Positions 1 through 17,199 of a stretch of 28,079 bases of DNA are shown here, one piece after another. The translations under genes and the position numbers were made by a program. The notes under the pieces were generated by a model that had not been told where the DNA came from, did no database searches, and saw only the letters and a list, made by a program, of their open reading frames with translations. The stretch covers positions 1 to 28,079 of IMG/VR virus record IMGVR_UViG_3300038825_000308; one strand, given 5' to 3'. The stretch's first letter is position 1. Every line of letters begins with the position of its first letter. Source of the DNA: a virus.

Positions 1-496
1 CGTCTGTCTTCAGGCTCTGGGCGATTGACTGCTGCGTCTCACGCCACGCCTGAAGGTTTGCGACAGGCTCCTCCAGCCGCCAGTAGCAGTGGCCGCGAAC
101 GAATGGCACTGTGCCTGTCTTGACTGACATCGTGAACTGCGGGCCTGCAAAGCTCAAGATATTCTTCATGGCTCCGTCGGTGTCGGCATCAGCAAAGCAG
201 TAGAACGCCGCGAGGATGTCTTTGTCGTGCGCTCCGAAGCCAGCCCTGATGTCCGCGTTGCCATCGACAGGGTTGACGCACATGTAGACGTTGCGTTTTG
301 CGTCGTTCATGGCTCTGGCGTGATCCGCCGCCAAGTCCAGCATGTCGAGACCGAAGCGGGCTATGTTAGCGCTGCCGTGCTCTGACAGCGCCCTGATCTC
401 AACCACTGGCTTGCCATCAAGCTCTGACCAGCCATCGGTGATCTGCTCAATAAACTCCGCGATTGTGTCCTGCTGCGCTTTTAGCTCTGGCATCAT
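1..496 (-). CDS. RepB/AEP-like primase (possible primase-helicase), N-terminal part, cut by window edge
   Basis: The reading frame is open from ATG at 496 to the left edge, so about 165 residues of the N-terminus are visible. Two features recall the RepB-like branch of the archaeo-eukaryotic primase superfamily. One is an N-V-Y-M-C-V-N-P strand. The other is an acidic F-A-D-A-D-T-D-G motif (candidate metal-binding D-x-D), followed about 20 residues later by S-V-K-T-G and then R-G-H-C-Y-W-R-L-E-E-P, like the 'SG.G.H.YW.L..P' signature. In phages such proteins usually prime replication and often carry a C-terminal helicase, which would lie outside the window. The start overlaps the methyltransferase stop (ATGA), with GGAGG about seven bases upstream. 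A second ATG at 493 is possible. The fold is inferred from motifs only. Confidence 0.62.
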   Translation of the reverse strand, partial: MMPELKAQQDTIAEFIEQITDGWSELDGKPVVEIRALSEHGSANIARFGLDMLDLAADHARAMNDAKRNVYMCVNPVDGNADIRAGFGAHDKDILAAFYCFADADTDGAMKNILSFAGPQFTMSVKTGTVPFVRGHCYWRLEEPVANLQAWRETQQSIAQSLKTD

Positions 497-1347
497 GTCA
501 TCTCCTCCACCATCTGTATTCTCTCGCCGATCCAGCGCATCACCGGGACAGCCATGCTGTTGCCCATTGCCTTGTATCGCGGGCCATCTGGGCAGTCTTC
601 CGCTACCTTATTTCGCCATGCTATCTGCGTGTAATTGTCTGGGAAGCCTTGTAGGCGCTCGCACTCTGTCGGTGTTAAGTGTCTAATCCCGCCACATTCC
701 TCAATGACATAACCTTCTTCTTCTCTGAGGCTTCCCGGCCCTCTGCGCGTGAGGCAAGGAAATACCCACCCAGAAACCTCCCCCGCTTCTCTGCTCGGCG
801 CAGGATGCCCTGACAGGCTTTCGCGCTCAAAAAGAACCGCTGCGGCACGTCGCCAGTCTCCAAGGTATCCGACAACGAACACACGGCGGCGTCGCTGGGC
901 CACTCCGAAGTATTGAGCGTCCAGCACTCGGTAGGCGAACCCATACCCGATTTGCCCCAGCGCTGCGAGGAAGGTTCCAAAGTCCCGTCCTCGGTTGGAT
1001 GACAATACGCCGGGGACGTTCTCCCAAACCAGCCATCTGGGCTGATAGCGTTCAGCAATGGCAAGATAGGTGAGCATGAGGTTTCCTCGTGGGTCATCAA
1101 GTCCTTTGCGAAGTCCTGCGACACTGAACGATTGGCATGGGGTTCCTCCAACGAGAAGGTCGATTGGGTCATTGGGCCACTCCTTAAATTCTGTCATGTC
1201 GCCAAGGTTCGGCGTGTTTGGATAATGATGCTCCAGAACTGCGCTGGGAAACTTTTCTATTTCGCTAAACCACTGCGGCTCCCATCCAAGCGGATGCCAA
1301 GCTGCTGTCGCAGCTTCAACGCCGCTACATACTGAACCATACTTCAT
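493..1347 (-). CDS. C5-cytosine DNA methyltransferase (orphan, Dcm family)
   Basis: This 284-residue protein transfers a methyl group from S-adenosylmethionine to carbon 5 of cytosine in DNA. The family motifs are present in order: motif I (F/V-C-S-G-V-E, residues 4-11) for SAM binding, motif IV G-G-T-P-C-Q-S-F with catalytic Cys71, motif VI W-E-N-V (108-111), motif VIII Q-R-R-R-R (151-155), motif IX around 222-236 (L-T-P-T-E-C-E-R-L-Q-G-F) and motif X G-N-S-M-A-V-P (262-268). The target-recognition region (about 165-220) is short, so specificity cannot be read. No restriction endonuclease lies next to it, so it looks like an orphan enzyme protecting phage DNA from host restriction. Both ends overlap neighbours by 4 bases (AlpA-like gene before, primase after), which suggests coupled translation with replication genes. 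Confidence 0.96.
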   Translation of the reverse strand: MKYGSVCSGVEAATAAWHPLGWEPQWFSEIEKFPSAVLEHHYPNTPNLGDMTEFKEWPNDPIDLLVGGTPCQSFSVAGLRKGLDDPRGNLMLTYLAIAERYQPRWLVWENVPGVLSSNRGRDFGTFLAALGQIGYGFAYRVLDAQYFGVAQRRRRVFVVGYLGDWRRAAAVLFERESLSGHPAPSREAGEVSGWVFPCLTRRGPGSLREEEGYVIEECGGIRHLTPTECERLQGFPDNYTQIAWRNKVAEDCPDGPRYKAMGNSMAVPVMRWIGERIQMVEEMT

Positions 1348-1559
1348 GTCGCCACCTTCTTGATGTATTCCTCAACATCAACCTGCTGGTCGCCTGTCTT
1401 CAGGTCTGCGATATACTTGTCCAGATCGGCCTTGCGCCAACGGGTCGCTCCGCCGATCTTGACTGGCTGCGGGAATTTGTCGATGCTGCCGACCCAGCGC
1501 CACACGGTATTGCGTGACACCGACATCATCTCGGCGACTTCTACGTCAGAGAGTAGCAT
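1344..1559 (-). CDS. AlpA/MerR-type helix-turn-helix protein (excisionase-like)
   Basis: A 71-residue protein. Residues 3-40 form a MerR/AlpA-like winged HTH: L-S-D-V-E-V-A-E-M-M-S-V-S-R-N-T-V-W-R-W, then F-P-Q-P-V-K-I-G and T-R-W-R-K-A-D-L-D-K-Y-I. The 'FP.PVKIG...RW...D...YI' ending is characteristic of AlpA and phage excisionase-like regulators. It is first in a transcript with the methyltransferase (ATGA overlap) and has a good ribosome site (AGGAGAAACAA before ATG) and its own promoter. No integrase is visible, so a regulatory role is as likely as excision. The family call is secure; the job is inferred. Confidence 0.8.
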   Translation of the reverse strand: MLLSDVEVAEMMSVSRNTVWRWVGSIDKFPQPVKIGGATRWRKADLDKYIADLKTGDQQVDVEEYIKKVAT

Positions 1560-1584
1560 TTGTTTCTCCTAATTGGTTTAGGGC

Positions 1585-1614
1585 AACATAGGGCCACATG
1601 AGGCTGCATGTCAA
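1585..1614 (-). promoter_or_regulatory. Sigma70-like promoter for the AlpA-like/methyltransferase/primase unit
   Basis: Read on the minus strand: TTGACA (1614-1609), 18-base spacer, TATGTT (1590-1585). The predicted start of transcription is about 19 bases before the ATG at 1559. The -35 box is followed by TGCA, as in the promoter at 2155-2183. The same half-site found in that promoter's palindrome (AGGGCCA, plus strand 1590-1596) abuts the -10 box. Confidence 0.6.
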
Positions 1615-1653
1615 CGGAATACAAGGTGAGTGATGATCTCGGATGAGCTTGGC

Positions 1654-1839
1654 TCACAGACCCGCCTCCCCCAGCATGATCTCAATGCAATATGCTGCAA
1701 TGGGGTTGAGCGGGCGCTCGCCCTGCTCCCAACGGCGGATCGTGCGTGCGCCGTGCTCCCCCATGCCCCACTCGTCCGCAAGTGCTTGCTGGCTGTAGCA
1801 GAGCGCTCTGCGTGCGTCCTTGAATTGTGTCGGTGTCAT
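1654..1839 (-). CDS. Small Xre-like helix-turn-helix protein
   Basis: A 61-residue protein whose whole length fits one HTH domain: M-T-P-T-Q-F-K-D-A-R-R-A-L-C-Y-S-Q-Q-A-L-A-D, then A-R-T-I-R-R-W-E-Q-G-E-R-P, with the 'S.Q.LA......R.I..WE.G..P' pattern of Cro/CI-type regulators. Such proteins bind operators as dimers. It starts 12 bases after the preceding gene ends, and the preceding stop codon TAA is part of its ribosome site (TAAGGAGA). It sits between two promoters that share a sequence element (1585-1614 and 2155-2183), which makes it a natural candidate for the repressor of this region. That link is inference. Confidence 0.75.
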   Translation of the reverse strand: MTPTQFKDARRALCYSQQALADEWGMGEHGARTIRRWEQGERPLNPIAAYCIEIMLGEAGL

Positions 1840-1851
1840 TGGTGTGTCTCC

Positions 1852-2112
1852 TTATTGAAAGCTGGATGCGTACATCTCAGAAACTTTGTCGGCGATGTCT
1901 TTACGCTTAGTGCTAGACAGCGTTACACCAGTGGCCATTGCGTAATTTATGTTATTTGTTTGGCTGCCGTACTGTGCAAAACCATTTTCAATTTTAAAAA
2001 TGTAGCCAACATATTCTGCGCCGACCTTGCGGATAAAGCCGACTGGCGTGTAGCTTTTGCTGTTGGTCATTGCGATAATGCCGTCGCGTCCAAATGATAC
2101 TTTCTTTTGCAT
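1852..2112 (-). CDS. Hypothetical protein, first gene after the palindrome-bearing promoter
   Basis: I do not recognise this 86-residue protein. It looks like a small soluble domain rich in beta-strand patterns: V-G-A-E-Y-V-G-Y-I-F-K-I-E-N-G-F-A-Q-Y-G is followed by a basic helix with T-K-R-K-D-I-A-D-K-V. No membrane segment or cysteine cluster is seen. The ribosome site is strong (AGGAGAACGAAA before ATG); almost the same leader, AGGAGAACGA, precedes the genes at 4856 and 5245. It is the first gene of a transcript continuing into the HTH protein. Confidence 0.65.
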   Translation of the reverse strand: MQKKVSFGRDGIIAMTNSKSYTPVGFIRKVGAEYVGYIFKIENGFAQYGSQTNNINYAMATGVTLSSTKRKDIADKVSEMYASSFQ

Positions 2113-2154
2113 TTTCGTTCTCCTGATTGGCGGGCTTCATTGCCCTATGAGTTA

Positions 2155-2183
2155 TATATAGGGCCAGTGGCCCTGCATGTAAA
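2155..2183 (-). promoter_or_regulatory. Strong sigma70-like promoter with internal palindromic operator
   Basis: Read on the minus strand: TTTACA (2183-2178), a 17-base spacer, then TATATA (2160-2155). The optimal spacing and near-consensus boxes predict a strong early promoter. The spacer holds a perfect palindrome, AGGGCCAGTGGCCCT (plus strand 2160-2174), with 7-base arms around one central base. It sits exactly where a repressor would block polymerase. The predicted 5' leader of the gene starting at 2112 is about 36 bases. Confidence 0.65.
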
Positions 2184-2233
2184 CCCCCAATGCCAAATAA
2201 ATTTAAAAAAATTCTTTCTGGCATTCGGGCAGC

Positions 2234-2262
2234 AAAAAGCCCCACCATTTCTGGCGGGGCTT
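2234..2262 (-). terminator. Intrinsic terminator closing the recombination gene block
   Basis: On the minus strand, AAGCCCCGCCA pairs with TGGTGGGGCTT around a GAAA tetraloop. This gives an 11-bp stem with one G-T wobble, followed by TTTTTGC. It is 25 bases beyond the stop codon at 2288 and separates the upstream transcript (from about 4880) from the next unit started at about 2148. Confidence 0.88.
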
Positions 2263-2287
2263 CCACTCAACTTGATTAAAATCCGCT

Positions 2288-2905
2288 TTAGAACTCAGCG
2301 TCAGTAATGACTGCCGCCGCTGGTGCGGCTGCTGGTGCTGCCACAGGCGCTGGTGTTGGCTCTGTCGCAATGCCAGCCGCAACGCCATCCTTCAGGCAGT
2401 CAGGGCGATCAACCCACTTGACGATTTCGAGGATTGGCACGACTGTTGAGCCCTTAGTGAACTGCACGAACTTGGCCTCTTGCAGACGGACCATTGGCAA
2501 GCTCTTGGCGTCTGGGCGCTGACCCAGTAGGGGCGCGAGTGCCTCCAGAGACTGCCACGCAGACGCGCCTGCTTGCTCCCATGTGGCGACAGCGCCGCCA
2601 CCTGTGGCGCACGGCACGCTGAAGCCCTTCTTCCAATCGTCGCCCGGCTTCCCCATCATCTGTGAGACGCTCTCGTTCCACTTCCATGACGGAGCCACGC
2701 CCACAGCGCCCTCGCTGTGCTGCCAGCCTGTCTTCAGTGCGTCGATGTCCATGACGAAGCCAGTGCTGGCATCATATGGGGTTTTATTGCCGCCGTCGCG
2801 GACGTAGAAGCTGCGCGCTGGGACAGTGCCATCGCGTGTGCCGATTGCTGACCATGCGAGGAATGGGCCTGCTGCGCCTGTGGAGCCTAGATCAAGATTA
2901 AACAT
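2288..2905 (-). CDS. Putative single-stranded DNA-binding or recombination accessory protein
   Basis: A 205-residue soluble protein with no clear catalytic motif. Residues 1-170 look like a compact domain rich in Trp, Gly and aromatics (F-L-A-W-S-A-I-G, K-W-N-E-S, V-Q-F-T-K-G). An Ala/Pro-rich flexible linker of about 25 residues follows, and the protein ends in I-T-D-A-E-F. A domain, a low-complexity linker and a short acidic, hydrophobic tip is the layout of SSB proteins. The neighbours (PD-(D/E)XK nuclease, RuvC-like resolvase) fit a role on ssDNA. It is last in its transcript, just before the terminator. The ribosome site is modest (AAAGGCGAC). The functional call is inference from layout and context. 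Confidence 0.7.
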   Translation of the reverse strand: MFNLDLGSTGAAGPFLAWSAIGTRDGTVPARSFYVRDGGNKTPYDASTGFVMDIDALKTGWQHSEGAVGVAPSWKWNESVSQMMGKPGDDWKKGFSVPCATGGGAVATWEQAGASAWQSLEALAPLLGQRPDAKSLPMVRLQEAKFVQFTKGSTVVPILEIVKWVDRPDCLKDGVAAGIATEPTPAPVAAPAAAPAAAVITDAEF

Positions 2906-2949
2906 TTTTGTCGCCTTTCATTGCTGACAGTTTGTCGTGTTGCGTATGG

Positions 2950-3702
2950 TCAGAAGCCATACATTTCTTCGCGGAGTGCCTCGGAGCCTGACCAGTAGAA
3001 CGTATTCGGGTTCACTGGCACGATGGCCCTTGCGGTCTCCGCATCGCACGCTGAGAGGAATTTCTCAAGCCGCGCAATCTTGTGTTTAGCGTTAGCCAAA
3101 ATTTCGTTCACGTCGCCATCTTCCAGCATCAGCGACTTGGCCTTGCTGACATAGAGGAACTTGACGCCGTAGTTGCCCATCGCCTTCTGATAGATGGCGC
3201 GCTGCAACTGGTGCTCTGCCGACATCACCTGCGTGATGCGGTTTGTGGTCTTGAGGTCGATGACCATGCCGCTCTCTGGGAAGACCAGATCAAGGTAGCC
3301 GATCACAGGGACTTCCCAGCCTTCGCCTTTTGCTGTGATGCTGATCTTGTGCTGGCTGCCGTCCTCTGGAAACTCTGGCTTGCCATAGTCCTTCAGCGCC
3401 TCAACAGCGTTGGCGACCATAGGGGCGATCACATCGCGCTCCTTGGTGGTCTTCTCGTCTCCGATGATGAAGCGCTTATCAAACTTGTCCAAGGCGCTCT
3501 GTGTGGCCTCCTCGACGCTCTGTGAGCCTGTCAGGGCCGCCACAACTGCATCCTCAGAGCATATGCCCCGCCAAGCCGCTGGCCCCATCGGCGTGCGCTT
3601 CTTAAAGAGGTATGACATGACCCACACGTCGGGCGCGTTTGACCAGAGGTTGATGCTGCTGGCAGAGAGGTGATCAATGCCGTGCTTTTCAAATCCATTC
3701 AC
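2950..3702 (-). CDS. PD-(D/E)XK nuclease of the RecB/Cas4 exonuclease type
   Basis: A 250-residue nuclease. The core is visible: G-Y-L-D (Asp138), then V-I-D-L-K-T (Asp149, Lys151) and a Q-R-A-I-Y motif (Gln167 to Tyr171), the Q-x3-Y that marks the RecB/AddB/Cas4 branch. An upstream R-G-x3-E (residues 45-50) supplies the usual N-terminal acidic residue. Such phage enzymes degrade DNA ends during recombination or host DNA breakdown. I see no four-cysteine iron-sulfur cluster, unlike Cas4 and AddB. The start is GTG in a GTGA overlap with the gene before it. It lies between a probable ssDNA-binding protein and small unknowns in a recombination block. Confidence 0.9.
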   Translation of the reverse strand: MNGFEKHGIDHLSASSINLWSNAPDVWVMSYLFKKRTPMGPAAWRGICSEDAVVAALTGSQSVEEATQSALDKFDKRFIIGDEKTTKERDVIAPMVANAVEALKDYGKPEFPEDGSQHKISITAKGEGWEVPVIGYLDLVFPESGMVIDLKTTNRITQVMSAEHQLQRAIYQKAMGNYGVKFLYVSKAKSLMLEDGDVNEILANAKHKIARLEKFLSACDAETARAIVPVNPNTFYWSGSEALREEMYGF

Positions 3703-3989
3703 TCTACCAACTCCACATTTTCTTCATCGATCACTTCGTGGACCATACTGATGATCTCGCCTAGTTCTTCAGCCGTTCCGAAGCCTTTGCAGTATGCCTT
3801 CATAACGTGAGGCCAAAAGTTTACTTCAAAGCCGTTTATCTCAGCCTGAACGTGCCACGGCGCTTTATCGTGATTAGGGAAATAAAGATCATCCCTGATG
3901 TCTGTCGCGTTGATGATCGTTTCAAAATCTTGGAGATTGTTGTCGTGCTCAAAGCACCGATTAAAGGCGTCTCTGTAATTATATCGCAT
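3699..3989 (-). CDS. Hypothetical protein in the recombination block
   Basis: I do not recognise this 96-residue protein. It is rich in aromatic and acidic residues: D-D-L-Y-F-P-N-H and P-W-H-V-Q-A-E-I-N-G-F-E-V-N-F-W-P-H suggest a small alpha/beta fold, and the C-terminal helix ends in an acidic tail (I-D-E-E-N-V-E-L-V-E). An excellent ribosome site (GGAGGAG, 7 bases before ATG) overlaps the stop of the preceding gene. Its end overlaps the nuclease start by 4 bases, so the two are probably made together. Function unknown. Confidence 0.75.
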   Translation of the reverse strand: MRYNYRDAFNRCFEHDNNLQDFETIINATDIRDDLYFPNHDKAPWHVQAEINGFEVNFWPHVMKAYCKGFGTAEELGEIISMVHEVIDEENVELVE

Positions 3990-4003
3990 TATGTCACTCC
4001 TCC

Positions 4004-4228
4004 TCAGCGGATGCCTTCATCGCGTTCTCGCAAATACCGCGTATGCTTCTCAATCGCCTCGGCTATTGAGAACAGTCCCTGCGCTATCCCAATAAATGCG
4101 TTCCCTCTTCCTTCGTCCATCTCCGCAATGGATCGGATAGCATCGGCAATATTGTCCCCCCGACATGTTAGGGCGGTTTCAAGCTCATTAAACTGGACCT
4201 GGTCTAGCTTTATCTCAACTTCAGTCAT
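4004..4228 (-). CDS. Small hypothetical protein, helical
   Basis: About 74 residues from the ATG at 4228; a GTG one codon earlier (4231) is a less well-spaced alternative. It looks fully helical, with alternating acidic and hydrophobic residues: L-D-Q-V-Q-F-N-E-L-E-T-A-L, F-S-I-A-E-A-I-E-K-H, R-Y-L-R-E-R-D. The start shares one base with the stop of the RuvC-like gene (TGATG) and has GGAAG seven bases upstream. I recognise no domain. A small partner of one of the neighbouring nucleases is conceivable but unsupported. Confidence 0.68.
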   Translation of the reverse strand: MTEVEIKLDQVQFNELETALTCRGDNIADAIRSIAEMDEGRGNAFIGIAQGLFSIAEAIEKHTRYLRERDEGIR

Positions 4229-4695
4229 CACATTACTTCCTTTCCATATAGGGCGATCAGTGTCGCCTCCGCGCGGCCATCGTCTTTGACGCGCTTGAAT
4301 TGATCTGCGTATTTAGGGAAGCGCTGCATCGCCAGCCCACGGCTCACACCCTTGTCTCTTGTCAGGCCGAAGTGCTTCTTCCACTTCTGCGGCGTGACGA
4401 GATACATCGGCGTCTCATTGGCGGCCAGCGCCATCTGCAATGCGCCGAACTGCTCGCCAAAACGAAACATTGACGACACGCCTTGGCCACGCATGGCTCC
4501 GACCTGCTCCATGAATGCAACACGCGCCTCATCGCCCTCTGGCTGCAATATCTCCAAGATGCCGTGCATATTGAGGACAGTCTTGCCCTTCGCGCTCGGC
4601 ATCGTCGGCATATCGTAAACCTCAATGTCGTTTGTCTTTGGCCAGTAGAGCGTGATTGCGCCCGTGTAGCCTGGGTCAATTCCGTATATCAGCAT
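4228..4695 (-). CDS. RuvC-like Holliday junction resolvase
   Basis: A 155-residue RNase H-fold nuclease. It opens with Y-G-I-D-P-G-Y-T-G (Asp7), has F-M-E-Q-V (Glu63), and ends with K-D-D-G-R-A-E-A-T-L-I-A (Asp138/139 and Glu143). These are the acidic residues that bind the two metal ions in RuvC. The length is close to bacterial RuvC (about 170) and typical of phage versions. It would cut four-way junctions or branched DNA formed during replication and recombination before packaging. It starts one base inside the preceding stop (TGATG), so it is co-translated with the small RHH-like gene. Confidence 0.9.
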   Translation of the reverse strand: MLIYGIDPGYTGAITLYWPKTNDIEVYDMPTMPSAKGKTVLNMHGILEILQPEGDEARVAFMEQVGAMRGQGVSSMFRFGEQFGALQMALAANETPMYLVTPQKWKKHFGLTRDKGVSRGLAMQRFPKYADQFKRVKDDGRAEATLIALYGKEVM

Positions 4696-4856
4696 CAGTC
4701 CGCTCTCGGCTGCTCTGTGTGGATGCCTTTAGACGCAGCGTCCTTCAGGGCGCAGTGACGCAAGTATGTGGACAGCGCCATGCCTGATTTGCCGGCGGCA
4801 TACATCAGAGCTTCGTGCTGCGCCTCCGTCAATAAAACCCGACTTTCCTTCTTCAT
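4695..4856 (-). CDS. Small ribbon-helix-helix-like (MobC/CopG-type) protein
   Basis: A 53-residue protein, the first gene of the leftward block. The sequence M-K-K-E-S-R-V-L-L-T-E-A-Q, then A-A-G-K-S-G-M-A-L-S-T-Y-L-R-H, fits the ribbon-helix-helix pattern: a short basic strand, a helix, a G-x-S/A-x-S-x-Y-L-R turn and a second helix. It resembles MobC and CopG-like DNA-binding proteins. The ribosome site is strong (AGGAGAACGAGC before ATG). As first gene after the divergent control region it may regulate its own promoter. The fold is inferred from the pattern alone. Confidence 0.72.
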   Translation of the reverse strand: MKKESRVLLTEAQHEALMYAAGKSGMALSTYLRHCALKDAASKGIHTEQPRAD

Positions 4857-4883
4857 GCTCGTTCTCCTGTAATGATGCTCCAG

Positions 4884-4911
4884 ACCATATAGGATAAAAA
4901 ATGCAGGTCAA
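4884..4911 (-). promoter_or_regulatory. Leftward promoter of the recombination block
   Basis: Minus strand TTGACC (4911-4906), a 16-base spacer, then TATGGT (4889-4884), about 27 bases before the ATG at 4856. The -35 box is followed by TGCA, as in the promoters at 1585-1614 and 2155-2183, but the AGGGCCA element is absent here. Confidence 0.5.
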
Positions 4912-4925
4912 GTCCTATAAAGTTG

Positions 4926-4955
4926 TTGACGGTGATTATTTTCACATGCTAGGAA
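4926..4955 (+). promoter_or_regulatory. Rightward promoter of the 4991-7911 operon
   Basis: Plus strand TTGACG (4926-4931), an 18-base spacer, then an extended -10, TGC-TAGGAA (4947-4955). The leader to the ATG at 4991 would be about 29 bases. An imperfect dyad, CACAT-N7-ATGTG (4943-4959), covers the -10 box and could be an operator. It faces away from the leftward promoter, making 4857-4990 a divergent control region. Confidence 0.45.
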
Positions 4956-4990
4956 TGTGCATCGAACGAAATTAACCAAGGAGCAAAATA

Positions 4991-5224
4991 ATGAGCACAG
5001 GGGACAATATGATCCGCAAGCGCAGGGCGAACGAGTTTCGCATCTGGCGTGCAGGACAGTCAGTCGGCTGGGACTGCACAGCCAAGGAGCTTGCGGCTGA
5101 GCTCGATCTGCATGTCGATACCATCCGCAAGATATGCAGGCAAAGGGGCTGGGCGTTGGCGGATGGCCATCACTATGGCTCTGTCCGCGAAAAGCGTGAA
5201 GTCGACTACTACTTTGAAGAATAA
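4991..5224 (+). CDS. Helix-turn-helix DNA-binding protein
   Basis: A 77-residue protein with a central HTH: A-K-E-L-A-A-E-L-D-L-H-V-D-T-I-R-K-I-C-R-Q-R-G-W (roughly residues 32-55), preceded by a basic N-terminal arm (I-R-K-R-R-A-N-E-F-R) and followed by an acidic tail. The 'AAELDLHVDTIR' helix pair is the recognition unit seen in sigma-like and resolvase-like HTHs. It is first in the rightward operon, next to the divergent promoters, so it is a good candidate for local control. Start chosen on AAGGAG seven bases before ATG. Confidence 0.8.
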   Translation: MSTGDNMIRKRRANEFRIWRAGQSVGWDCTAKELAAELDLHVDTIRKICRQRGWALADGHHYGSVREKREVDYYFEE

Positions 5225-5244
5225 CCAACCCAAGGAGAACGAAC

Positions 5245-5754
5245 ATGCAAACAATCCTCATCACAAATTATCACCCAGACGGCTTCGCCTTCGCTTTGAC
5301 TGAAGCAGGCGAGCAGATTTTCATCCCGCCATACGCCATTGACGGAGCCGAGCTTCAGCGTGGCAAGCGCTATCAGGCCGTGCTCGTGGACAATCACAAA
5401 GAGCACCAGCGCGAGCGCACGCCCTACATGGCTGTCAGCGTATTGGTCACTGAGCACGTTTTGAAGCCAGAGCCACCCGAGGCCGCTACATCCGCTACAT
5501 CCGCTACACAAGCGGAGGACATCAGCATCGAAGATCGTGACGAGGCTATCTTCAACCTGATCTGCGAAAGCGAATATATGACATCGGCAGAGCTTGCCGA
5601 GCACAGTGGCCTTGATAGCAAGACGGCAAGCAACAGCGCCAATCGCCTGTATATCGCAGGCCGCATCGCCAAGGCAGACGTCTACAATCGTGTCGGCCAA
5701 GCTCGCGCCAGCCTCACGCTGTGGGCCGAGAACGCCAACAAGTTCGTGGAGTAA
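5245..5754 (+). CDS. Two-domain protein: cold-shock/OB-like N-terminus, winged-helix C-terminus
   Basis: A 169-residue protein. Residues 1-70 resemble a short OB/cold-shock barrel (G-F-A-F-A-L-T-E-A-G-E-Q-I-F-I-P-P, then L-Q-R-G-K-R-Y-Q-A-V-L-V-D). A linker contains a 9-base tandem repeat giving A-T-S-A-T-S-A-T-Q. Residues 95-165 look like a winged helix (D-E-A-I-F-N-L-I, M-T-S-A-E-L-A-E-H-S-G-L-D-S-K-T-A-S-N-S-A-N-R-L). Nucleic-acid binding by both halves is likely, perhaps as a transcription or replication regulator. The ribosome site is the AAGGAGAACGAAC leader shared with leftward genes. The domain calls are from pattern, not a search. Confidence 0.72.
   Translation: MQTILITNYHPDGFAFALTEAGEQIFIPPYAIDGAELQRGKRYQAVLVDNHKEHQRERTPYMAVSVLVTEHVLKPEPPEAATSATSATQAEDISIEDRDEAIFNLICESEYMTSAELAEHSGLDSKTASNSANRLYIAGRIAKADVYNRVGQARASLTLWAENANKFVE
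5483..5509 (+). repeat. Three 9-bp tandem units in the linker of the OB/winged-helix gene
   Basis: The unit CCGCTACAT occurs three times in a row (last base changed in the third). It keeps the reading frame and encodes a repeated Ala-Thr-Ser linker. Such short in-frame repeats readily change copy number. Confidence 0.8.
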
Positions 5755-5758
5755 TGTC

Positions 5759-5920
5759 ATGGAGAAGGAACGCAAAACCATTCTGGCCCGCCTGCGCCGC
5801 AAGATCGACATCATCAGGCTGGACCAAAAGCAGCGTGGAGGCGACTTCGGTGGCCACGCATCAGAGTGCCTGACACTTCTGGATATTCTGGACCGTATGG
5901 AAGAGGGAGAGAGCAAATGA
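5759..5920 (+). CDS. Small hypothetical protein, charged helix
   Basis: A 53-residue protein that is mostly one or two charged helices: M-E-K-E-R-K-T-I-L-A-R-L-R-R-K-I-D-I-I-R-L-D, a glycine turn (R-G-G-D-F-G-G), then L-T-L-L-D-I-L-D-R-M-E-E. GGAG sits seven bases before the ATG, overlapping the previous stop region, and its own stop overlaps the next gene by 4 bases (ATGA). No family recognised. The coding call rests on frame, ribosome site and tight packing. Confidence 0.65.
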   Translation: MEKERKTILARLRRKIDIIRLDQKQRGGDFGGHASECLTLLDILDRMEEGESK

Positions 5921-6375
5921 TTACCGCCGCAGCCTGCCTTGCAATGGCAATCTACCACGAAGGTCGCTCTGAGCCAGTGGATGCTCAGATGGCCATTGCA
6001 GAGGTTATCGTCAATCGGACGCAACATCCTGACTTCCCCAGCACCGTCTGCGGTGTGGTCAAGGAGCACCGCTCGCCAGTGTCTCGCCCGTGGGCCTGCC
6101 AGTTCAGCTTTTACTGTGACGGCAAGTCAGACAGGCCGACAGACGCTAAGGCGTGGGCAGCGGCTCAGGCAGTGGCCAAAGAGGCTCTCTCAGGCGCAAC
6201 TCTGGGCATTGGGGCAACCCACTACCACACGAAGGCAGTCAAGCCTGTCTGGCGGCACGATCTGACGCCCGTTGGCGCTATTGGAGAGCATATCTTTTAC
6301 ACGGACGGCAAGTGCCTGCTGGCGCTCGGCTGCTCACTGCGCCCTGTGGCGCGTCCAGAAGGAGATAAGGGATGA
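5917..6375 (+). CDS. SleB-type cell-wall hydrolase (Hydrolase_2 family)
   Basis: A 152-residue enzyme. It matches the SleB/CwlJ catalytic domain: an A-I-Y-H-E-G-R-S-E-P motif (candidate catalytic Glu near residue 15), then A-Q-M-A-I-A-E-V-I-V-N-R-T, Y-C-D-G-K-S-D and G-A-T-H-Y-H near the middle, with a basic tail. These are peptidoglycan hydrolases, most likely lytic transglycosylase or amidase types. There is no clear signal peptide; the N-terminus M-I-T-A-A-A-C-L-A-M-A-I is already part of the domain. It lies in the rightward small-gene operon, far from the endolysin and spanins, so it may act at another stage or as a second lysin. The ATG overlaps the preceding stop. Confidence 0.9.
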   Translation: MITAAACLAMAIYHEGRSEPVDAQMAIAEVIVNRTQHPDFPSTVCGVVKEHRSPVSRPWACQFSFYCDGKSDRPTDAKAWAAAQAVAKEALSGATLGIGATHYHTKAVKPVWRHDLTPVGAIGEHIFYTDGKCLLALGCSLRPVARPEGDKG

Positions 6376-6551
6376 CCAAACAAGAAGAACTCAAAGACTG
6401 CATTGCATCATTGCGCAAGGAGCGTGACGAGATGGAAATGCGCTATCAGGGCGTGCGTCCATCATATGTCAGCACCGATCTGGCGGTATTGGAGGAGCGT
6501 ATCGAGCGTTACAAGGCCAAGCTGGCCGAGATGGAGGGAGAAGCGGAATGA
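6372..6551 (+). CDS. Small coiled-coil protein
   Basis: A 59-residue, highly charged protein predicted to be almost entirely coiled coil: E-E-L-K-D-C-I-A-S-L-R-K-E-R-D-E-M-E-M-R-Y, a short break with Gly-Val-Arg-Pro-Ser-Tyr, then L-A-V-L-E-E-R-I-E-R-Y-K-A-K-L-A-E-M. AAGGAG sits seven bases upstream, and there are ATGA overlaps with both neighbours (SleB before, membrane protein after). It sits between a wall hydrolase and a membrane protein, but no function can be assigned. Confidence 0.7.
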   Translation: MTKQEELKDCIASLRKERDEMEMRYQGVRPSYVSTDLAVLEERIERYKAKLAEMEGEAE

Positions 6552-6772
6552 CTGAAATTTCACTTGAGCTTATTCCTGGTGCTTTACATGGCGCTGGAGC
6601 GGTAGCGTTTTATTTTGCAGCGATTGATGTAGTAAAAGAAAGAAGGGGTCGCGCGGTAGTTAAGGACAAGTTGATAATAGCCTTTGTCAGTCCGCTCTGG
6701 CCCTGCCTGATCCTCTATCAACTGTTCTACCGCCTGCTTGCAACGATTATTAAGGAAGGAGACAAGACATGA
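6548..6772 (+). CDS. Small membrane protein with two hydrophobic segments (holin candidate)
   Basis: A 74-residue protein with two hydrophobic stretches, about residues 8-28 (I-P-G-A-L-H-G-A-G-A-V-A-F-Y-F-A-A-I) and 43-68 (L-I-I-A-F-V-S-P-L-W-P-C-L-I-L-Y-Q-L-F). They are separated by a basic loop (K-E-R-R-G-R) and followed by a charged tail. Size and topology fit small two-helix phage holins, and a cell-wall hydrolase lies two genes upstream. There is also a one-helix protein right after it. Equally it could be an early membrane protein of another kind. ATGA overlaps on both sides. Confidence 0.68.
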   Translation: MTEISLELIPGALHGAGAVAFYFAAIDVVKERRGRAVVKDKLIIAFVSPLWPCLILYQLFYRLLATIIKEGDKT

Positions 6773-6918
6773 GTGACCCACTACCAAACCTGACACGCAG
6801 AGAGCGCATTGCGCTTTGGTTTATCATCCTCGCCTTGGATACTGTCGGCGCATACCGATTTAAGCACGAGTGGAAAGAGCTTAGTGAAGACTTGAGAAAG
6901 GAGCTTCGTGATGGATGA
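6769..6918 (+). CDS. Small single-helix membrane protein
   Basis: A 49-residue protein with one hydrophobic segment (A-L-W-F-I-I-L-A-L-D-T-V-G-A-Y, about residues 15-29) between a basic N-terminus (T-R-R-E-R) and a charged C-terminal helix (E-W-K-E-L-S-E-D-L-R-K-E-L). AAGGAG lies seven bases before ATG; the start overlaps the previous stop by 4 bases and the end overlaps the next gene by 8. It may pair with the preceding two-helix protein. Unrecognised otherwise. Confidence 0.62.
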   Translation: MSDPLPNLTRRERIALWFIILALDTVGAYRFKHEWKELSEDLRKELRDG

Positions 6919-7303
6919 CCGTAAATTTACACCGCCAACAGAGTTCCCCGCTGAGTATGTCGATAGTAATGGTGACAAGGCCGTGATCTTGGGGCGAGGG
7001 CCACACAAAGTGTTTCCGTTTATTGGCCATAACGCTGCTGGATATGCTCGATATTGGACTGAGAAGGGGACTTTCTCCAGTTTAGGTATAAACGGATTCG
7101 ACCTCCACGACATCCCCAAGCGCATCACAAGGTGGCACAATGTTTACGATGGTTGGGTTGGCCACCAGTTCTTCACTCGAAGTCACGCAGACGAGCATTA
7201 CGATGCTTGCAAGGCGTTTAAACCACGCCCTCGCCTCTGCGTCTACCGCATTGAACGTAACGAGGATGGCAGCAACCCTGAGATATTCGTGGAGGAAGTT
7301 TAA
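6911..7303 (+). CDS. Hypothetical phage protein
   Basis: A 130-residue soluble protein. It has many aromatic and charged residues (G-R-G-P-H-K-V-F-P-F-I-G, N-A-A-G-Y-A-R-Y-W-T-E-K-G, R-C-like R-L-C-V-Y-R-I-E-R-N) and ends in an acidic I-F-V-E-E-V. The first two thirds contain regularly spaced G-x-x-x-[YF] turns suggestive of a small beta-rich fold. The start is the ATG at 6911, with AAGGAG seven bases upstream; GTG at 6908 is possible. The stop shares a base with the next ATG (TAATG). No function assigned. Confidence 0.75.
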   Translation: MDDRKFTPPTEFPAEYVDSNGDKAVILGRGPHKVFPFIGHNAAGYARYWTEKGTFSSLGINGFDLHDIPKRITRWHNVYDGWVGHQFFTRSHADEHYDACKAFKPRPRLCVYRIERNEDGSNPEIFVEEV

Positions 7304-7911
7304 TGGCACAAAAAGTAGTAGACGCAGACATGATTGAGACGATCCGCAGGGGAGCCAAGGCTGGCCTCACGGCAAACCAGATCGCCGCCACGCTTGATGT
7401 GGTCGTCACCACGGTGCGCCGTCACGCCTACAAGCACGGCATAGCGCTGGCAAAGGCTCAGCTCGAAAACAGCCCCGCCATCAGAGACAAGCAGATCAAG
7501 CAGCTCAACTTGGCGGCGGCGGCACGCAAGAAGGCCGAGAAGAAGCGGCTCATGCAGGTTGCGCAAGACTTGGCAAAAATCTCGAACCCGCAGGAGCGCA
7601 AGGAGGCGCTATATGGCCAAGCTCTGATGGCATTTGAGCTGAAGCAGGCCGCAGAGGGACGCAGAGACAAGCTGCCCTGCCACGCGCCGTCACCCGAGGC
7701 ACTGAAGCAGCGCAGGCGCAGAGATATAAAGAACTACAAGCCGCTGGAGATCGCAGGCATTACATTCGCCTCACGCACCTGCGCTGCTGAAGCTCTTGGC
7801 GTCAGTCGCGGGGAATTTTCTGCTATGATTTCTGACAAAGCCACTCCGTTCCGCCGTCAGAAGCTCGCGCGGATGCTGGGCGAGTATAAGCGTAAGGTGG
7901 CGGCAGGCTAG
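7303..7911 (+). CDS. DNA-binding protein: N-terminal HTH, C-terminal NUMOD1-like module
   Basis: A 202-residue, very basic protein. Residues 8-48 form an HTH (G-L-T-A-N-Q-I-A-A-T-L-D-V-V-V-T-T-V-R-R-H). A long Lys/Arg-rich helix follows (A-A-A-R-K-K-A-E-K-K-R). The end (about 152-196) reads E-I-A-G-I-T-F-A-S-R-T-C-A-A-E-A-L-G-V-S-R, the 'F.S...AA.ALGVS' pattern of NUMOD1-type modules found on phage HNH homing nucleases. No HNH or GIY-YIG catalytic motif is present, so it looks like a DNA binder without a nuclease. Last gene of the rightward operon, its stop overlaps that of the opposing gene. Confidence 0.75.
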   Translation: MAQKVVDADMIETIRRGAKAGLTANQIAATLDVVVTTVRRHAYKHGIALAKAQLENSPAIRDKQIKQLNLAAAARKKAEKKRLMQVAQDLAKISNPQERKEALYGQALMAFELKQAAEGRRDKLPCHAPSPEALKQRRRRDIKNYKPLEIAGITFASRTCAAEALGVSRGEFSAMISDKATPFRRQKLARMLGEYKRKVAAG

Positions 7912-9020
7912 TCGCCAGAGGCGACAACCGTCAAAACCTCGCCCCGATCTCGGTGCAGAGTAACGGCGCGAATTTCAGACTTCCCTGAATATGCCCCATT
8001 GAACGAATAAGCGTCCTTTGGGGCAACCGCTCTAAGCTGCTGCCACAACATGCCACCGATCTCGCTGCTCTTCAGGTGATGTAGGTGGCCCGTCCACAGG
8101 AACCTGTGCTTAGTCTTGCCCCACTCCTCACTGTGCCGATCCGCAATGGCCATAATCAGTCGCTCTGGCTTTGACTTGTCGCCGTGATGGCTGGCCAAGA
8201 GGCACTGGCCGAAGCGCATAATGAAGAAGTCACTGGGGTCTAGCTGAACATCAATGCGAGGCTCGTTTCGGTAATATGCGTGAACGGCAAAGAGCGTGAT
8301 CATGTAGCTCGTCGGGTTGTGATTGCCCGCAAGTATCCTGACGATAACCTTCTCGTGCTTTGCGAGCGCCATGTCACAGCAATGCACAAGCGTCTTGATG
8401 CTGGCATCAGCCGTTCTGAAGTGACGCGTTGCAACATCAAGCTGATGCTTGCTCTGAGGCGTGCGATTGTCTTGGCTGTCTGCGTGGTGCAGGTCGCCAA
8501 CATCCAGAATAACCGCAGTGCTTGACGATGGAGACGCGTCAATGGCGGACTTCATCCAGCGCTTGACGCGGGCTTCCGCGATGTCGGTGTCATAGTCCTC
8601 GCCAACCTCCTCTCCCCACGCATACATGCCCATATGGACATCCGCTATGGGGTAGATGGTCAACAGGTCATCATCGCAATGAGGCGGCTCTTCTGCGGCC
8701 TCTATGGGGCGCATGTCGGCCAAGCTGGCCTTGATGCTCTCCGCAAGGTCTTCAATGCTGTTCCCGCCGCCGTCCTTTGGCATTTGAAAATACAGGGAAG
8801 CGCCTTCGCTCTTGATCCAGCCTGAGTGCAGTGGCCCAGCGTCCTGCATTCCGACAGAGCTCATGGCCCCTTGGATAGCACCGTCTGCCTCTGCGTGCTT
8901 GCGTGCGCCCTTCAGACGGTTTCGCAGTGCGTTTTCAGCAATGCCAAGCTGCTTCGCAATAGCTCGGCCCGACATCCCTGCGAGATGTAACTCCCACGCT
9001 TCTCTTTGCTTGGGGGTCAT
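7908..9020 (-). CDS. Calcineurin-like metallophosphoesterase with N-terminal helix-turn-helix
   Basis: About 370 residues from the ATG at 9020, which gives an ATGA overlap with the spanin gene; a GTG at 9026 is the alternative. Residues 3-42 form an HTH (A-G-M-S-G-R-A-I-A-K-Q-L-G-I-A-E-N-A-L-R). The catalytic domain has every motif in order: D-V-H (127-129), G-D-L-H (175-178), G-N-H-N (232-235), S-H-H-G-D (277-281) and G-H-L-H-H (311-315). These ligate two metals, as in Mre11/SbcD and related phosphodiesterases. The likely activity is cutting nucleic acid or nucleotide phosphoesters, with targeting by the HTH. It is last in the late operon, after the lysis genes, an uncommon place for a DNA enzyme. 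Confidence 0.9.
   Translation of the reverse strand: MTPKQREAWELHLAGMSGRAIAKQLGIAENALRNRLKGARKHAEADGAIQGAMSSVGMQDAGPLHSGWIKSEGASLYFQMPKDGGGNSIEDLAESIKASLADMRPIEAAEEPPHCDDDLLTIYPIADVHMGMYAWGEEVGEDYDTDIAEARVKRWMKSAIDASPSSSTAVILDVGDLHHADSQDNRTPQSKHQLDVATRHFRTADASIKTLVHCCDMALAKHEKVIVRILAGNHNPTSYMITLFAVHAYYRNEPRIDVQLDPSDFFIMRFGQCLLASHHGDKSKPERLIMAIADRHSEEWGKTKHRFLWTGHLHHLKSSEIGGMLWQQLRAVAPKDAYSFNGAYSGKSEIRAVTLHRDRGEVLTVVASGD
7911..7925. other. Hairpin at the convergent gene junction
   Basis: GTCGCC and GGCGAC form a perfect 6-bp inverted repeat around a 3-base loop, directly at the point where the two operons meet and inside the last codons of the metallophosphoesterase. Neither side has a T run, so it is not a standard intrinsic terminator. 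It may still slow polymerase or protect 3' ends. Confidence 0.4.
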
Positions 9021-10926: not shown

Positions 10927-11122
10927 TGCGAGACTTCCGTGGCTTTTTAGGGGCTTCAGTTGGCTTGGGAGGCTCTACAACCTCGCGCAAAACGGTGATG
11001 CTGTCGGGTCGGAATGTCTTGATCTTGGCGATCTCAGCGTCCGACAGGATAACAGTTTCGCCCTTTTCAATGCGGCCCTTGCTGCACTTGATCTTGATGC
11101 GATTGACGATGACTTCTTTCAT
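10901..11122 (-). CDS. Small basic-tailed protein downstream of the capsid gene
   Basis: A 73-residue protein. Residues 1-50 look like a small beta domain (M-K-E-V-I-V-N-R-I-K-I-K-C-S-K-G-R-I-E-K-G, then E-T-V-I-L-S-D-A-E-I-A-K-I), and the end is a Pro/Lys/Arg-rich tail (P-P-K-P-T-E-A-P-K-K-P-R-K-S-R). This layout is like the small head or 'mu-like FluMu' helper proteins found after capsid genes, but the match is only stylistic. Start chosen at 11122 because GGAG lies about seven bases upstream and the longer frame runs back through the hairpin and the capsid gene. Confidence 0.7.
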   Translation of the reverse strand: MKEVIVNRIKIKCSKGRIEKGETVILSDAEIAKIKTFRPDSITVLREVVEPPKPTEAPKKPRKSRNAKSRSLN

Positions 11123-11144
11123 GGGGAACTCCGCGAGATGAGGT

Positions 11145-11168
11145 AGAGGGGGCCGTGAAGCCCCCTCT
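11145..11168 (-). terminator. GC-rich hairpin after the capsid gene (partial terminator or mRNA stabiliser)
   Basis: A perfect 9-bp inverted repeat, AGAGGGGGC/GCCCCCTCT, with a 6-base loop lies just after the capsid stop codon. On the minus strand it is followed by ACCTC, not by a T run, so full termination is unlikely. Such hairpins after capsid genes often give partial termination or protect the abundant upstream mRNA from 3' decay. Confidence 0.5.
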
Positions 11169-11175
11169 GTCGTCA

Positions 11176-12132
11176 CTATGACGTTGTGTTGTCGAAGATG
11201 CCGCCGTTGGCCGCTTCGTTCTTCGCGCAGAGTGTGAGCTCTGTAACAACTTGGCGAGTTGTGTTGTCGCCAGTTTTCGCGAGTGCCACGTTCTTCGTTG
11301 GACGAAGAACCGCAACTTCCCACATGTTGTCCTGCATAATAAAGACGTCACGTGAGCGGTTCTCGCGACTTGGCATGAACTCTACACTCCCCCATGGGGT
11401 CACATAAACTGCCAAGGACTTGATGACACGCTCGTCGCCAGCTTGAACGGCTGAACGCTGGTTGTTGTTACCAGTAAAGCCGAGAGCTTTGTTCATCTGG
11501 AACGCTGAGAGGTAAACCGTGTCTGGCTTGCCGCCTTCTTCCCAGATTGACTGCATAACAGTGTCGAACTTTGTCTGGTCGAACGCTGTGAGAGCAGTTG
11601 TCTCGTCTGTACGGGCGTCTGTGCCGTCGCCTGTTGGGTCTGCACCTTCGTTGGCGCCGAACACTGTGTTCGATGTCAGCCATGCAGGCGCACCAGCAAG
11701 TTCACGAGCAGTTGAAGAGTTGCCAGCAACGCGAGCGTTGTTGTCGAAGAGCGCTTTTTCGATGTCGAGCTTCTGCTCTTTTGCGATCTTCAGGGTCTGG
11801 TATGCAACCTCTTTTGCGCGGCCAGCTTTGTCCAAACCTTCGTCTGTGTCTGGAACGACAACAGCGTTTTTGAAGATTTGTGTGTAGTTGCCGAGACGGG
11901 TTGTCGCGCCGCGAGCTTCGCCAGCAGTTGCGTCGCCTTCAATGTGCGCGTTTGCAGCAGAAGCGCGGAGGCTGTCTGTCTGCCACTCGACGAGAGTGTT
12001 GCGAGCTGAAGTTTTTGAAGACTTCGAGTAGAAGGGCGTTTCTTCCGGGGAGATGTTGTAGATTACATCTTTCAGGTCTTCCCGGATACCGACGGCATCA
12101 TAGCTGTCGAATGTGTTTGTTGGCTGTGCCAT
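11176..12132 (-). CDS. Major capsid protein (SU10/DUF5309 type)
   Basis: A 318-residue coat protein that would form the icosahedral shell. The N-terminus M-A-Q-P-T-N-T-F-D-S-Y-D-A-V-G, then R-E-D-L-K-D-V-I-Y-N-I-S-P-E-E-T-P-F, is characteristic of the SU10-like coat family (DUF5309) with HK97 fold. The middle I-F-K-N-A-V-V-V-P-D-T-D and the C-terminal E-L-T-L-C-A-K-N-E-A-A-N-G-G-I also fit. It follows the scaffold gene directly, and a stable hairpin lies after its stop. The ribosome site GAAAGGA precedes ATG. No protease gene is visible nearby. Confidence 0.93.
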   Translation of the reverse strand: MAQPTNTFDSYDAVGIREDLKDVIYNISPEETPFYSKSSKTSARNTLVEWQTDSLRASAANAHIEGDATAGEARGATTRLGNYTQIFKNAVVVPDTDEGLDKAGRAKEVAYQTLKIAKEQKLDIEKALFDNNARVAGNSSTARELAGAPAWLTSNTVFGANEGADPTGDGTDARTDETTALTAFDQTKFDTVMQSIWEEGGKPDTVYLSAFQMNKALGFTGNNNQRSAVQAGDERVIKSLAVYVTPWGSVEFMPSRENRSRDVFIMQDNMWEVAVLRPTKNVALAKTGDNTTRQVVTELTLCAKNEAANGGIFDNTTS

Positions 12133-12153
12133 TTGTGTAGTCCTTTCAAAGAC

Positions 12154-13134
12154 TTAGGAGTTGAGGATCAGACCCAATGCGTCATTGATTGAGCCTGTTT
12201 TCTGCAAGCGCGATTGCGCCTTCTTGCGAGTTGCAGCTTGGCCGTCTGGTGTTTTCTTCGCACCAGCTCGCACGACAGGACGGGCCTTCTCGCCCTTCTG
12301 CTGTGCATCTTTGCGCTTAGCCACGAGTGCTCGATACTTCCGTGCGTCATTCAACGCTCGGACATAACGTGCATCTGAGACCTGTGCCATCTCCTCGGCT
12401 GTGAAGCCGTAATCCATGCCGACTTGCATCAAGTCGCCCTTCAACTTCTCACCCTTTTCGGGATCAGCAATCTCGGGGATGTGCTGCCGCAAAATTTCAG
12501 CCTGCTCTTGCAGATACGACTGATGCGCCTGCTGTTGCCGCTGAGCTGTTTGCTGCTGCACTTGCTGCATTTGGTAGAGATTTTGGTCGTATGTAGCCTT
12601 TGCCTCGTCGTACTCAAGCTTCATTTCCATATAGGATATGGGATCGCTTTCGAATAGCTCTCGTGACGGTGGGGTTGGGGCTTGCAAACCACCTTCTTGC
12701 GCTTGCTGATACAACTGCACCAGTTGCTGTTGCTGCTGTGCTAAAGCGGCATTCGCCTGCTCGATTTGCTTACGCGCCTCGGCAGCCTCTTGAAACCGCT
12801 TGTTGATTGCCGCTTGACCCGCAGCAGATTGCTTTAGCTGATCCAGTGTCCACATCTGCTCTTTCCCGTCTACTTTAACGGGGATCAGATTGGTGTCTTC
12901 AGCCTCTGCCTCTACTAGGTCTTCGTCGTCAATTTGGTCATCATCGTAGTCTTCGTCGGATGCCTCAACGTCATCGTCGCTCTCGGCTACAGCTTCAAGC
13001 TCTTCACCCTGATCGTCATCAGACGGCTCAGTGATTGAGTCTACAGCTTCGCTCAGATTATCACCCTGCGCCTCGGGGGCTTCGGATGTCGATAGCAGGC
13101 TCTCGGCCGCTTGTTCTAGGGTAGTCGCTTCCAC
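12154..13134 (-). CDS. Scaffolding protein
   Basis: A 326-residue protein with scaffold layout. Residues 1-80 are extremely acidic (runs such as E-S-D-D-D-V-E-A-S-D-E-D-Y-D-D-D). Residues 90-215 are a Gln-rich coiled coil (E-Q-A-N-A-A-L-A-Q-Q-Q-Q-Q-L). The C-terminus from about 265 is strongly basic (K-R-K-D-A-Q-Q-K-G-E-K-A-R, K-K-A-Q-S-R-L-Q-K-T), which in P22-like phages binds the coat. It lies between portal and capsid genes, as scaffolds do. The start is GTG, with AAGGAAG seven bases upstream overlapping the stop of the previous gene. Confidence 0.85.
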   Translation of the reverse strand: MEATTLEQAAESLLSTSEAPEAQGDNLSEAVDSITEPSDDDQGEELEAVAESDDDVEASDEDYDDDQIDDEDLVEAEAEDTNLIPVKVDGKEQMWTLDQLKQSAAGQAAINKRFQEAAEARKQIEQANAALAQQQQQLVQLYQQAQEGGLQAPTPPSRELFESDPISYMEMKLEYDEAKATYDQNLYQMQQVQQQTAQRQQQAHQSYLQEQAEILRQHIPEIADPEKGEKLKGDLMQVGMDYGFTAEEMAQVSDARYVRALNDARKYRALVAKRKDAQQKGEKARPVVRAGAKKTPDGQAATRKKAQSRLQKTGSINDALGLILNS

Positions 13135-13138
13135 GGTG

Positions 13139-15558: not shown

Positions 15559-15568
15559 GCGTTTTCCT

Positions 15569-17197: not shown

Positions 17198-17199
17198 AA

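Follow-up and report, generated by a model that had tools for sequence, protein, structure and literature searches.

A probable exchangeable phage cassette resembling acr-aca operons, with a palindromic promoter element linked to a terminal 61-residue HTH gene

The closest described systems are the acr-aca operons. In each bacterial Aca family analysed in PMC9410906 the core promoter contains conserved inverted repeats, and those Aca proteins that were tested there repress their promoter. As stated in PMC9765179, anti-CRISPR genes share little sequence and many of them were found via the adjacent Aca gene; the AcaFinder threshold for a family is given there as E < 1e-10. Anti-restriction genes and orphan methyltransferases are described in PMC7648647 as clustering with Aca-marked loci, and PMC11065993 reports anti-defence candidates of archaeal viruses that were found through a conserved promoter sequence.

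The virus record IMGVR_UViG_3300038825_000308 was analysed over a stretch of 28,079 bases, referred to as the window; related loci carry L numbers. Part of the structural genes of the window resembles Octadecabacter Antarctic DB virus 2 (66.5% identical, with 24% of a 7.9-kb query covered), and similarity to Sulfitobacter phages was detected in short stretches of these genes; the comparison with named phages covered positions 1-8000 and 11000-18900. Judging by the window's relatives, the phages that carry the cassette described below probably infect Rhodobacterales. On the minus strand, a 205-aa gene is followed by a terminator-like hairpin, the promoter P1 with its palindrome, an 86-aa gene and the gene of the HTH protein HTH61. 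Beyond HTH61 lie the promoter P2, an HTH_17 gene, a C5 methyltransferase gene and a further gene leaving the window edge. The features are the following:

2231-2262, minus strand: terminator-like hairpin after the 205-aa gene, at the left edge of the cassette
1615-2231, minus strand: inserted cassette (P1, O1, leader, cargo, HTH61), absent in the relatives L002-L006
2155-2183, minus strand: promoter P1, near-consensus and sigma-70-like (TTTACA 2183-2178, 17-bp spacer, TATATA 2160-2155)
2160-2174, no strand: predicted operator O1, the perfect palindrome AGGGCCA-C-TGGCCCT filling the P1 spacer
2132-2145, minus strand: leader GGGCAATGAAGCCC, predicted 5' end of the transcript, possible 4-bp stem with hexaloop
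1852-2112, minus strand: cargo gene, an 86-aa ORFan (start ATG 2112, Shine-Dalgarno AGGAGA 2124-2119)
1654-1839, minus strand: HTH61, a 61-aa Xre-type HTH protein (from sequence, profile and model), last gene of the cassette and proposed repressor of P1
1585-1614, minus strand: P2, promoter of the HTH_17 gene, resident and outside the cassette (TTGACA 1614-1609, 18-bp spacer, TATGTT 1590-1585)
1589-1608, no strand: imperfect palindrome of P2, TGCAGCCTCATGTGGCCCTA, a degenerate form of TGCGGCY-N6-RGCCGCA
1344-1559, minus strand: HTH_17/excisionase-like 71-aa protein
493-1347, minus strand: C5 cytosine methyltransferase, downstream of P2

The unit formed by P1, O1, the 86-aa gene and HTH61 is likely to be a phage cassette that is self-contained and exchangeable, functions in the manner of an acr-aca operon and carries a cargo most probably serving counter-defence. 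This reading is based on the anatomy of promoter and operator, the linkage of operator and HTH gene, their co-variation, the presence or absence of the cassette and the exchange of its cargo.

A preliminary description of this DNA had reported a perfect palindrome at 2160-2174, between the -35 and -10 elements of P1, which was confirmed (AGGGCCACTGGCCCT, 7+1+7); the positions given there for both promoters are right as well, including TGGCCCT abutting the -10 of P2 (TTGACA/TATGTT, spacing 18). The transcript from P1 is predicted to start at about position 2148. The core shared by the operator family, GGNC-N5-GNCC, corresponds to 2161-2173. A consensus promoter scan listed P2 and missed P1; its rule requires a T at the end of the -10, where P1 has TATATA. 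The rest of the genome was searched for the palindrome as proposed in that description, and AGGGCCACTGGCCCT was found as a single copy in the 28,079 bases with up to two mismatches allowed; on this ground a genome-wide O1 regulon was rejected. AGGGCCA occurs eight times in the window against 3.4 expected, a number reached by 2 of 100 shuffles. The palindrome alone is not significant, because the window contains two perfect 7+1+7 palindromes and 20 shuffles contained 0-5; its rarity was thus rejected as evidence, and the weight for O1 is its conservation at the same promoter position. A link between the GGCC of O1 and the target of the methyltransferase was discarded too, as GGCC is not avoided (165 sites vs 171 expected from composition).

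Relatives of HTH61 were gathered by protein alone (39 loci, with more among the later loci). The 66 HTH matches were reduced to 51 non-redundant ones, and L062 and L063, without upstream DNA, were skipped. Up to 1,300 nt upstream were searched for a P1-type pattern (TTNNNN, 3 to 6 bases, RGNC-N5-GNCC, TA) derived from the same loci. Promoter and operator were present in sense orientation upstream of 32 of the 34 non-redundant main-family HTH genes and in antisense orientation upstream of none (0/34), with a mean of 0.14 (maximum 2 of 50) in shuffles. As for the two misses, the operator of L035 is located 1.8 kb upstream and the contig of L031 starts 10 nt before the leader. Among more distant HTH relatives the operator was found in 7 of 15 (antisense 1/15). 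All 33 placed main-family promoters have a -35/-10 spacing of 17 bp and an operator abutting the -10, in a count that sets the -10 immediately behind the operator; when the -10 was chosen automatically by a looser rule, 20 of 31 rows had 17 bp and the rest 15, 16 or 18. In the distant group the spacing is 17 in four and 16 in three of seven promoters. As 17 bp is the optimum, this spacing favours a repressor over a spacer-bending activator.

In a test independent of the HTH gene, viral contigs were scanned for the leader GGGCAATGAAGCCC (at least 119 stretches) and genome contigs for ATAGGGCAATGAAGCCC (31 stretches). Among the matches listed, a same-strand HTH-family gene is located downstream of 14 of the 17 viral leader sites that have an operator 13-22 nt upstream, and in the three misses the contig ends after 357, 292 and 42 nt; the corresponding number for viral leader sites without operator is 10 of 109, again among the matches listed. 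Genome leader sites are followed by the HTH gene in 2/3 cases with operator and 1/30 without. The association (Fisher p ~1e-11 among the matches listed) refers to non-independent sites: 3 of the 14 positive ones (L078, L107, L155) are on contigs also present in the HTH-query set, and L166 was counted twice. No HTH61 was found in the 1.9 kb following the operator-plus-leader site of L186. When the collection was scanned with promoter and operator only, HTH61 was detected within about 1.1 kb downstream in 15 of 19 stretches, 13 of these positives being on contigs already in the set; a control scan with scrambled operator returned six stretches, none with HTH61. Six contigs of the promoter-operator scan were new. 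Two of them carry HTH61, in one (L246) the third gene after the operator encodes another small HTH protein (HTH_3 below cut-off), and the remaining three have neither HTH61 nor another small HTH gene.

A sample of 394 genomes from the family of a Sulfitobacter strain, with up to 16 candidates scored in each genome, contained an HTH61 match in at least four. Out of five matches, L239 and L241 are preceded by a P1-type site on the sense strand and L240 and L242 by no such site, and the contig of L238 is cut at the HTH gene. Two genome contigs carry a full cassette, L194 under the title Rhodobacteraceae and L208, from a metagenome bin, under Verrucomicrobiales. Comparison of HTH61 with 50,697 named phage records gave a single match, with 41% identity. 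L243 and L244, two named phages whose structural genes are related, have no HTH61, and no P1-type site was found in L244; one place in L243 (26,739 on) matches a loose P1 pattern on both strands, without HTH61.

HTH61 was modelled with high confidence (pLDDT 97) as four helices, with residues 30-39 as recognition helix; it is a single small HTH domain without extension beyond the four-helix fold. Pfam HTH_3 scores 17 bits, under the cut-off of 23. A profile of HTH61 searched against 177,635 solved sequences matched best with Aca3 (3.8e-6), then with 7xi5 (1.8e-5), which is named Aca10 in the fold comparison. Since a bridging factor comes third (7.5e-5) and is followed by a designed protein, Aca2 (1.2e-3), HigA2 and the lambda and 434 repressors, the relatedness to Xre proteins is broad. 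Searching with the single sequence of the window HTH61 gave nothing convincing (best 0.54). In Foldseek the antitoxin HigA2 was first and Aca2 fifth, all matches being weak (no E below 0.001).

Residue 31, close to the N-terminal end of the recognition helix, co-varies with the operator. It is E in 10 main-family proteins, all of which (10/10) go with GGNCA on both arms, i.e. A at arm position 5. In the other 23 the residue is A, G, N, R or S, and one of these proteins (L095) goes with GGNCA on both arms. These counts are confounded by clade, as the E proteins are mutually alike, and include L038 twice with one operator. We take residue 31 to occupy the position of the base-contacting Gln28 of the 434 repressor. 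The co-variation gives support, short of proof, to the proposal that HTH61 reads the O1-type operator, and the specificity of the pair appears to depend on one recognition-helix residue. The autoregulation suggested earlier for the unit of HTH gene and palindromic promoter is most likely, given the operator-HTH linkage and this co-variation. Its interpretation as a switch says more than can be read from the single operator seen; a pulse followed by shut-off would fit as well as or better than a switch.

On the minus strand of L241 (1090-1683), a P1-type site precedes the gene of a 197-aa protein with an HTH61-like stretch, possibly a cargo-repressor fusion; such a fusion can be likened to AcrIIA1 and AcrIF24. 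L035 contains a broken HTH copy (3261-3428), whose first 22 residues match before the sequence becomes unrelated, and an intact copy downstream in the same operon. Two tandem HTH61 genes (4737 and 5001) are located in one operon behind a single operator in L038.

The cassette itself is present or absent between related phages. In L002-L006 the gene preceding the cassette is directly followed by P2 and HTH_17, and L004 has 11 bases (ACTTAGGCCCA) in place of the 617 of the window. In a second lineage an HTH61 cassette with a 142-aa cargo occupies the same spot in L225/L228 (contigs of L030/L033), and L221-L224, L226, L227 and L229 are without cassette. The 86-aa cargo of the window has a homologue in L001 (72-73% identical), which is accompanied by a much more distant HTH (5e-13) and the same operator type. 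For the 86-aa protein, no useful family match, no solved relative and no match in named phages were found, nor any match in the 394 genomes, in a search that had no positive control; its AlphaFold model is unreliable (pLDDT 55). A terminator-like site is located inside its gene (2026-2004), one of 8 such sites in 6 kb vs 5.2 in shuffles. By eye, the ORF at 4991-5224 on the plus strand resembles the cargo proteins of L035, L040 and L042 (IWRA..SV.WDCT motif), and a cargo-type gene may thus also be present on the rightward side of the window.

Across the relatives, short predicted operons with small cargo end with the HTH gene (36 loci). Between operator and HTH gene, 63 cargo ORFs belonging to 45 clusters were called by a simple start/Shine-Dalgarno rule, which makes the number approximate; L043 and L045 have no cargo ORF upstream of the HTH gene. 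Some cargo clusters occur with different HTH and operator types, and cross the HTH subgroups (L036/L041 with L044/L055; L028 with L046; L052/L208 with L115; L001 with the window). For domain analysis, 46 of 65 called cargo ORFs (62 distinct sequences) were scanned as one set; those left out were mostly near copies, together with two short ORFs, two HTH copies and two long proteins (pentapeptide, TAGT), which were scanned afterwards. At least 41 of the 46 proteins had no Pfam match at 0.01. The recognised cargo comprises Mom (2.2e-39) in L114 with a close copy in L037, a TET-associated glycosyltransferase (TAGT, 5.1e-49) in L035, LPD29 (9.4e-23) in L052 and L115 with a close copy in L208, and a pentapeptide-repeat protein in L038; one PHROG match was to an HNH endonuclease (4e-4). 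Mom and TAGT are phage DNA-modification proteins that protect against restriction. Pfam and NCBIfam gave no match to a known anti-CRISPR family for any of the 46 proteins.

The leader GGGCAATGAAGCCC accompanies 29 of the 33 main-family P1 promoters. Its predicted fold has a z-score of only -1.3, with 22 of 200 shuffles equally good, and no known RNA family (Rfam) was matched in window positions 1-8000. A role as second operator is unlikely: its GGGC...GCCC remains constant when the operator shifts from GGGCC to GGACA, and it likewise precedes chromosomal genes and internal cistrons. GGGCAATGAAGCCC was observed 19-25 nt before the start codons of phage cistrons and chromosomal genes (L188, L195, L212, L213), the gene being by eye that of the same 184-aa protein in L195, L212 and L213, and it resembles a leader hairpin in general use among Rhodobacteraceae. 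Other short hairpins (GGGGCTTCGGCCCC, GGGGCATAAGCCCC) are located upstream of internal cistrons in L031, L034, L048, L050 and L061, as if each cassette cistron carried its own 5' stem. The hairpin at 2231-2262 reaches -24.2 kcal/mol (z -4.3), which none of 200 shuffles equalled, and was missed by the terminator scan.

Taken together, a mechanism can be proposed in which P1 would fire immediately upon DNA entry, when the repressor is absent. The transcript would yield the cargo protein, most likely a counter-defence protein, and HTH61 as product of the last gene. A dimer of HTH61 would then bind O1 with one recognition helix per GGNC half-site, and the occupied operator, which fills the -35/-10 spacer, would exclude RNA polymerase and end the pulse. 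Alternatively, the cassette could stay almost silent in the lysogenic state. In this scheme we infer the sign of the control (repression, not activation), the binding as a dimer, the timing and the function of the cargo.

The preliminary description had instead proposed that one HTH protein controls P1 and P2 as a pair via a common AGGGCCA element, with TGCA after the -35, in a switch for the methyltransferase/primase unit. Both promoters indeed contain an exact TTKACATGCAG and share TGGCCCTAT, and the terminator scan listed nothing between the HTH61 stop (1654) and P2, the same scan that missed the hairpin at 2231-2262. This explanation is nevertheless quite improbable. The four bases after the -35 vary across P1 relatives (TGCA, CTGA, TGTA, TATC, AGGC, CACC and others), so that TGCA is not a conserved part of a shared element. 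P2 is found in 15 of 18 HTH_17-related loci, one of them truncated, and TTGACATGC is exact in 12 of the 14 untruncated ones; TGGCCCT is present in only 5 of 15 P2 loci, the right arm being mostly AGCCGCA in the others. Four P2 relatives have TGCGGCTGCATATAGCCGCA, a perfect palindrome with 7-bp arms and a 6-bp spacer (TGCGGCT-GCATAT-AGCCGCA), which differs from O1 in its centre, and TGCAGCCTCATGTGGCCCTA is unchanged in close relatives without HTH61. TGCA is part of the left arm of the P2 palindrome and TGGCCCT part of the right one, and neither of them is an O1 half-site: the copy at 1590, regarded earlier as such a half-site, belongs to the right arm of P2's own palindrome (1589-1608), which is kept where the cassette is absent. 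P2 is thus a neighbouring, separately regulated promoter, as far as can be read from the DNA, and the HTH_17 protein is its natural candidate regulator. The P2 palindrome before HTH_17 genes (window, L221-L230) represents a second, separate candidate operator-regulator pair. What is left of the proposed control of the methyltransferase/primase unit is indirect: it would not act via a shared P1/P2 operator, and read-through from P1 is a weak possibility, no terminator being listed. The C5 methyltransferase has 284 aa in the window vs 385 in L036 and 440 in L033; the missing segment would be the expected target-recognition region, and the copy in L002, also without the extra part, aligns over its full length.

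Three further explanations start from the HTH protein itself. In a toxin-antitoxin operon the cargo would act as toxin, with HTH61 as a HigA/MqsA-type antitoxin that represses its own operon. The HigA2 fold match, weak NCBIfam similarity to the antitoxins Y4mF (0.0025) and MqsA (0.0049), both far under the cut-offs, and the order with toxin first and HTH last would suit a type II system, yet 45 cargo clusters stand against one conserved 61-aa HTH without extension, DNA-modification proteins are among the recognised cargo, and no toxin-named family was matched by the 46 cargo proteins, most of which have no match at all. We regard this explanation as unlikely. An operator of a lysis-lysogeny repressor of the CI/Cro type is very unlikely: the Xre fold, the palindromic operator and the lambda, 434 and P22 repressors among the weak matches agree with it, but the whole window, possibly a fragment, contains a single P1-type site, the HTH gene ends a short cassette missing from close relatives, and an integrase is present in 2 of the 12 cassette-bearing records searched (fragments or of unknown completeness). 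Just as improbable is a C-protein-like controller of the solitary C5 methyltransferase. Such a gene is located downstream in the window and near HTH61 relatives in L033 and L036, and C.Kpn2I and C.Csp231I are among the structural matches of HTH61; against this, different genes follow other cassettes among the matches listed (one of 408 aa in L029, L031 and L032 and one of 184-190 aa in L050, L052 and L061), and phages lacking the cassette still have P2 as the resident promoter of the HTH_17-methyltransferase unit.

Going beyond the acr-aca-like cassette of the window, it is conceivable, though we advance it only tentatively, that HTH61 and its operator form an undescribed and widespread regulator class in (probably marine) alphaproteobacterial phages, with one evolvable repressor-operator code (residue 31/arm position 5) and cassettes trading counter-defence cargo. 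In that case the majority of the 45 cargo clusters would represent new defence inhibitors or evaders that are readable by the operator alone, and the 86-aa protein of the window would be one of them. No description of an HTH61-type regulator or operator was recognised in the literature searched; HTH61 may be among the 36 new families of AcaFinder. A list of short, mostly domain-less phage proteins is obtained as candidates for counter-defence. As with the adjacent Aca gene, a conserved promoter-operator together with a small HTH gene could mark candidate genes in uncultivated phages.

HigA2/MqsA-type antitoxins have a palindrome in their own promoter and share the Xre fold with HTH61; the cassettes differ from them in having no recognised toxin partner, no extra domain and cargo that is unrelated between operons. 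The acr-aca operons (Aca1-Aca10), as described in PMC9410906, resemble the cassettes in the strong promoter with an inverted repeat in its core, in small unrelated cargo with a small HTH gene at the end (averaging 60-65 aa in that source), and in the combination of the same HTH with different cargo and the reverse. The closest solved relatives of HTH61 are also Aca3 and Aca10. The cassettes differ in their GGNC-N5-GNCC operator, in occurring almost only in uncultivated phages and in that an anti-CRISPR is proven in none of them; HTH61 is too distant from the solved Aca2, Aca3 and Aca10 to belong to these families. The cassette probably works like an acr-aca operon, and membership in a numbered Aca family is not claimed, because the best E against these three (3.8e-6) falls short of the AcaFinder level of < 1e-10 and there is no proven anti-CRISPR. 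The Aca-marked anti-defence clusters of PMC7648647 are alike in that Mom, TAGT and C5 methyltransferases are found here beside HTH-marked operons; according to that source they are defined by proven anti-CRISPRs and belong to plasmids and prophages, whereas the present loci are defined by regulator and operator. The approach of PMC11065993 is similar in that a promoter sequence guides the finding of counter-defence candidates; it concerns archaeal viruses, while here a bacterial sigma-70-like promoter, an operator and the predicted cognate HTH gene together provide the guide.
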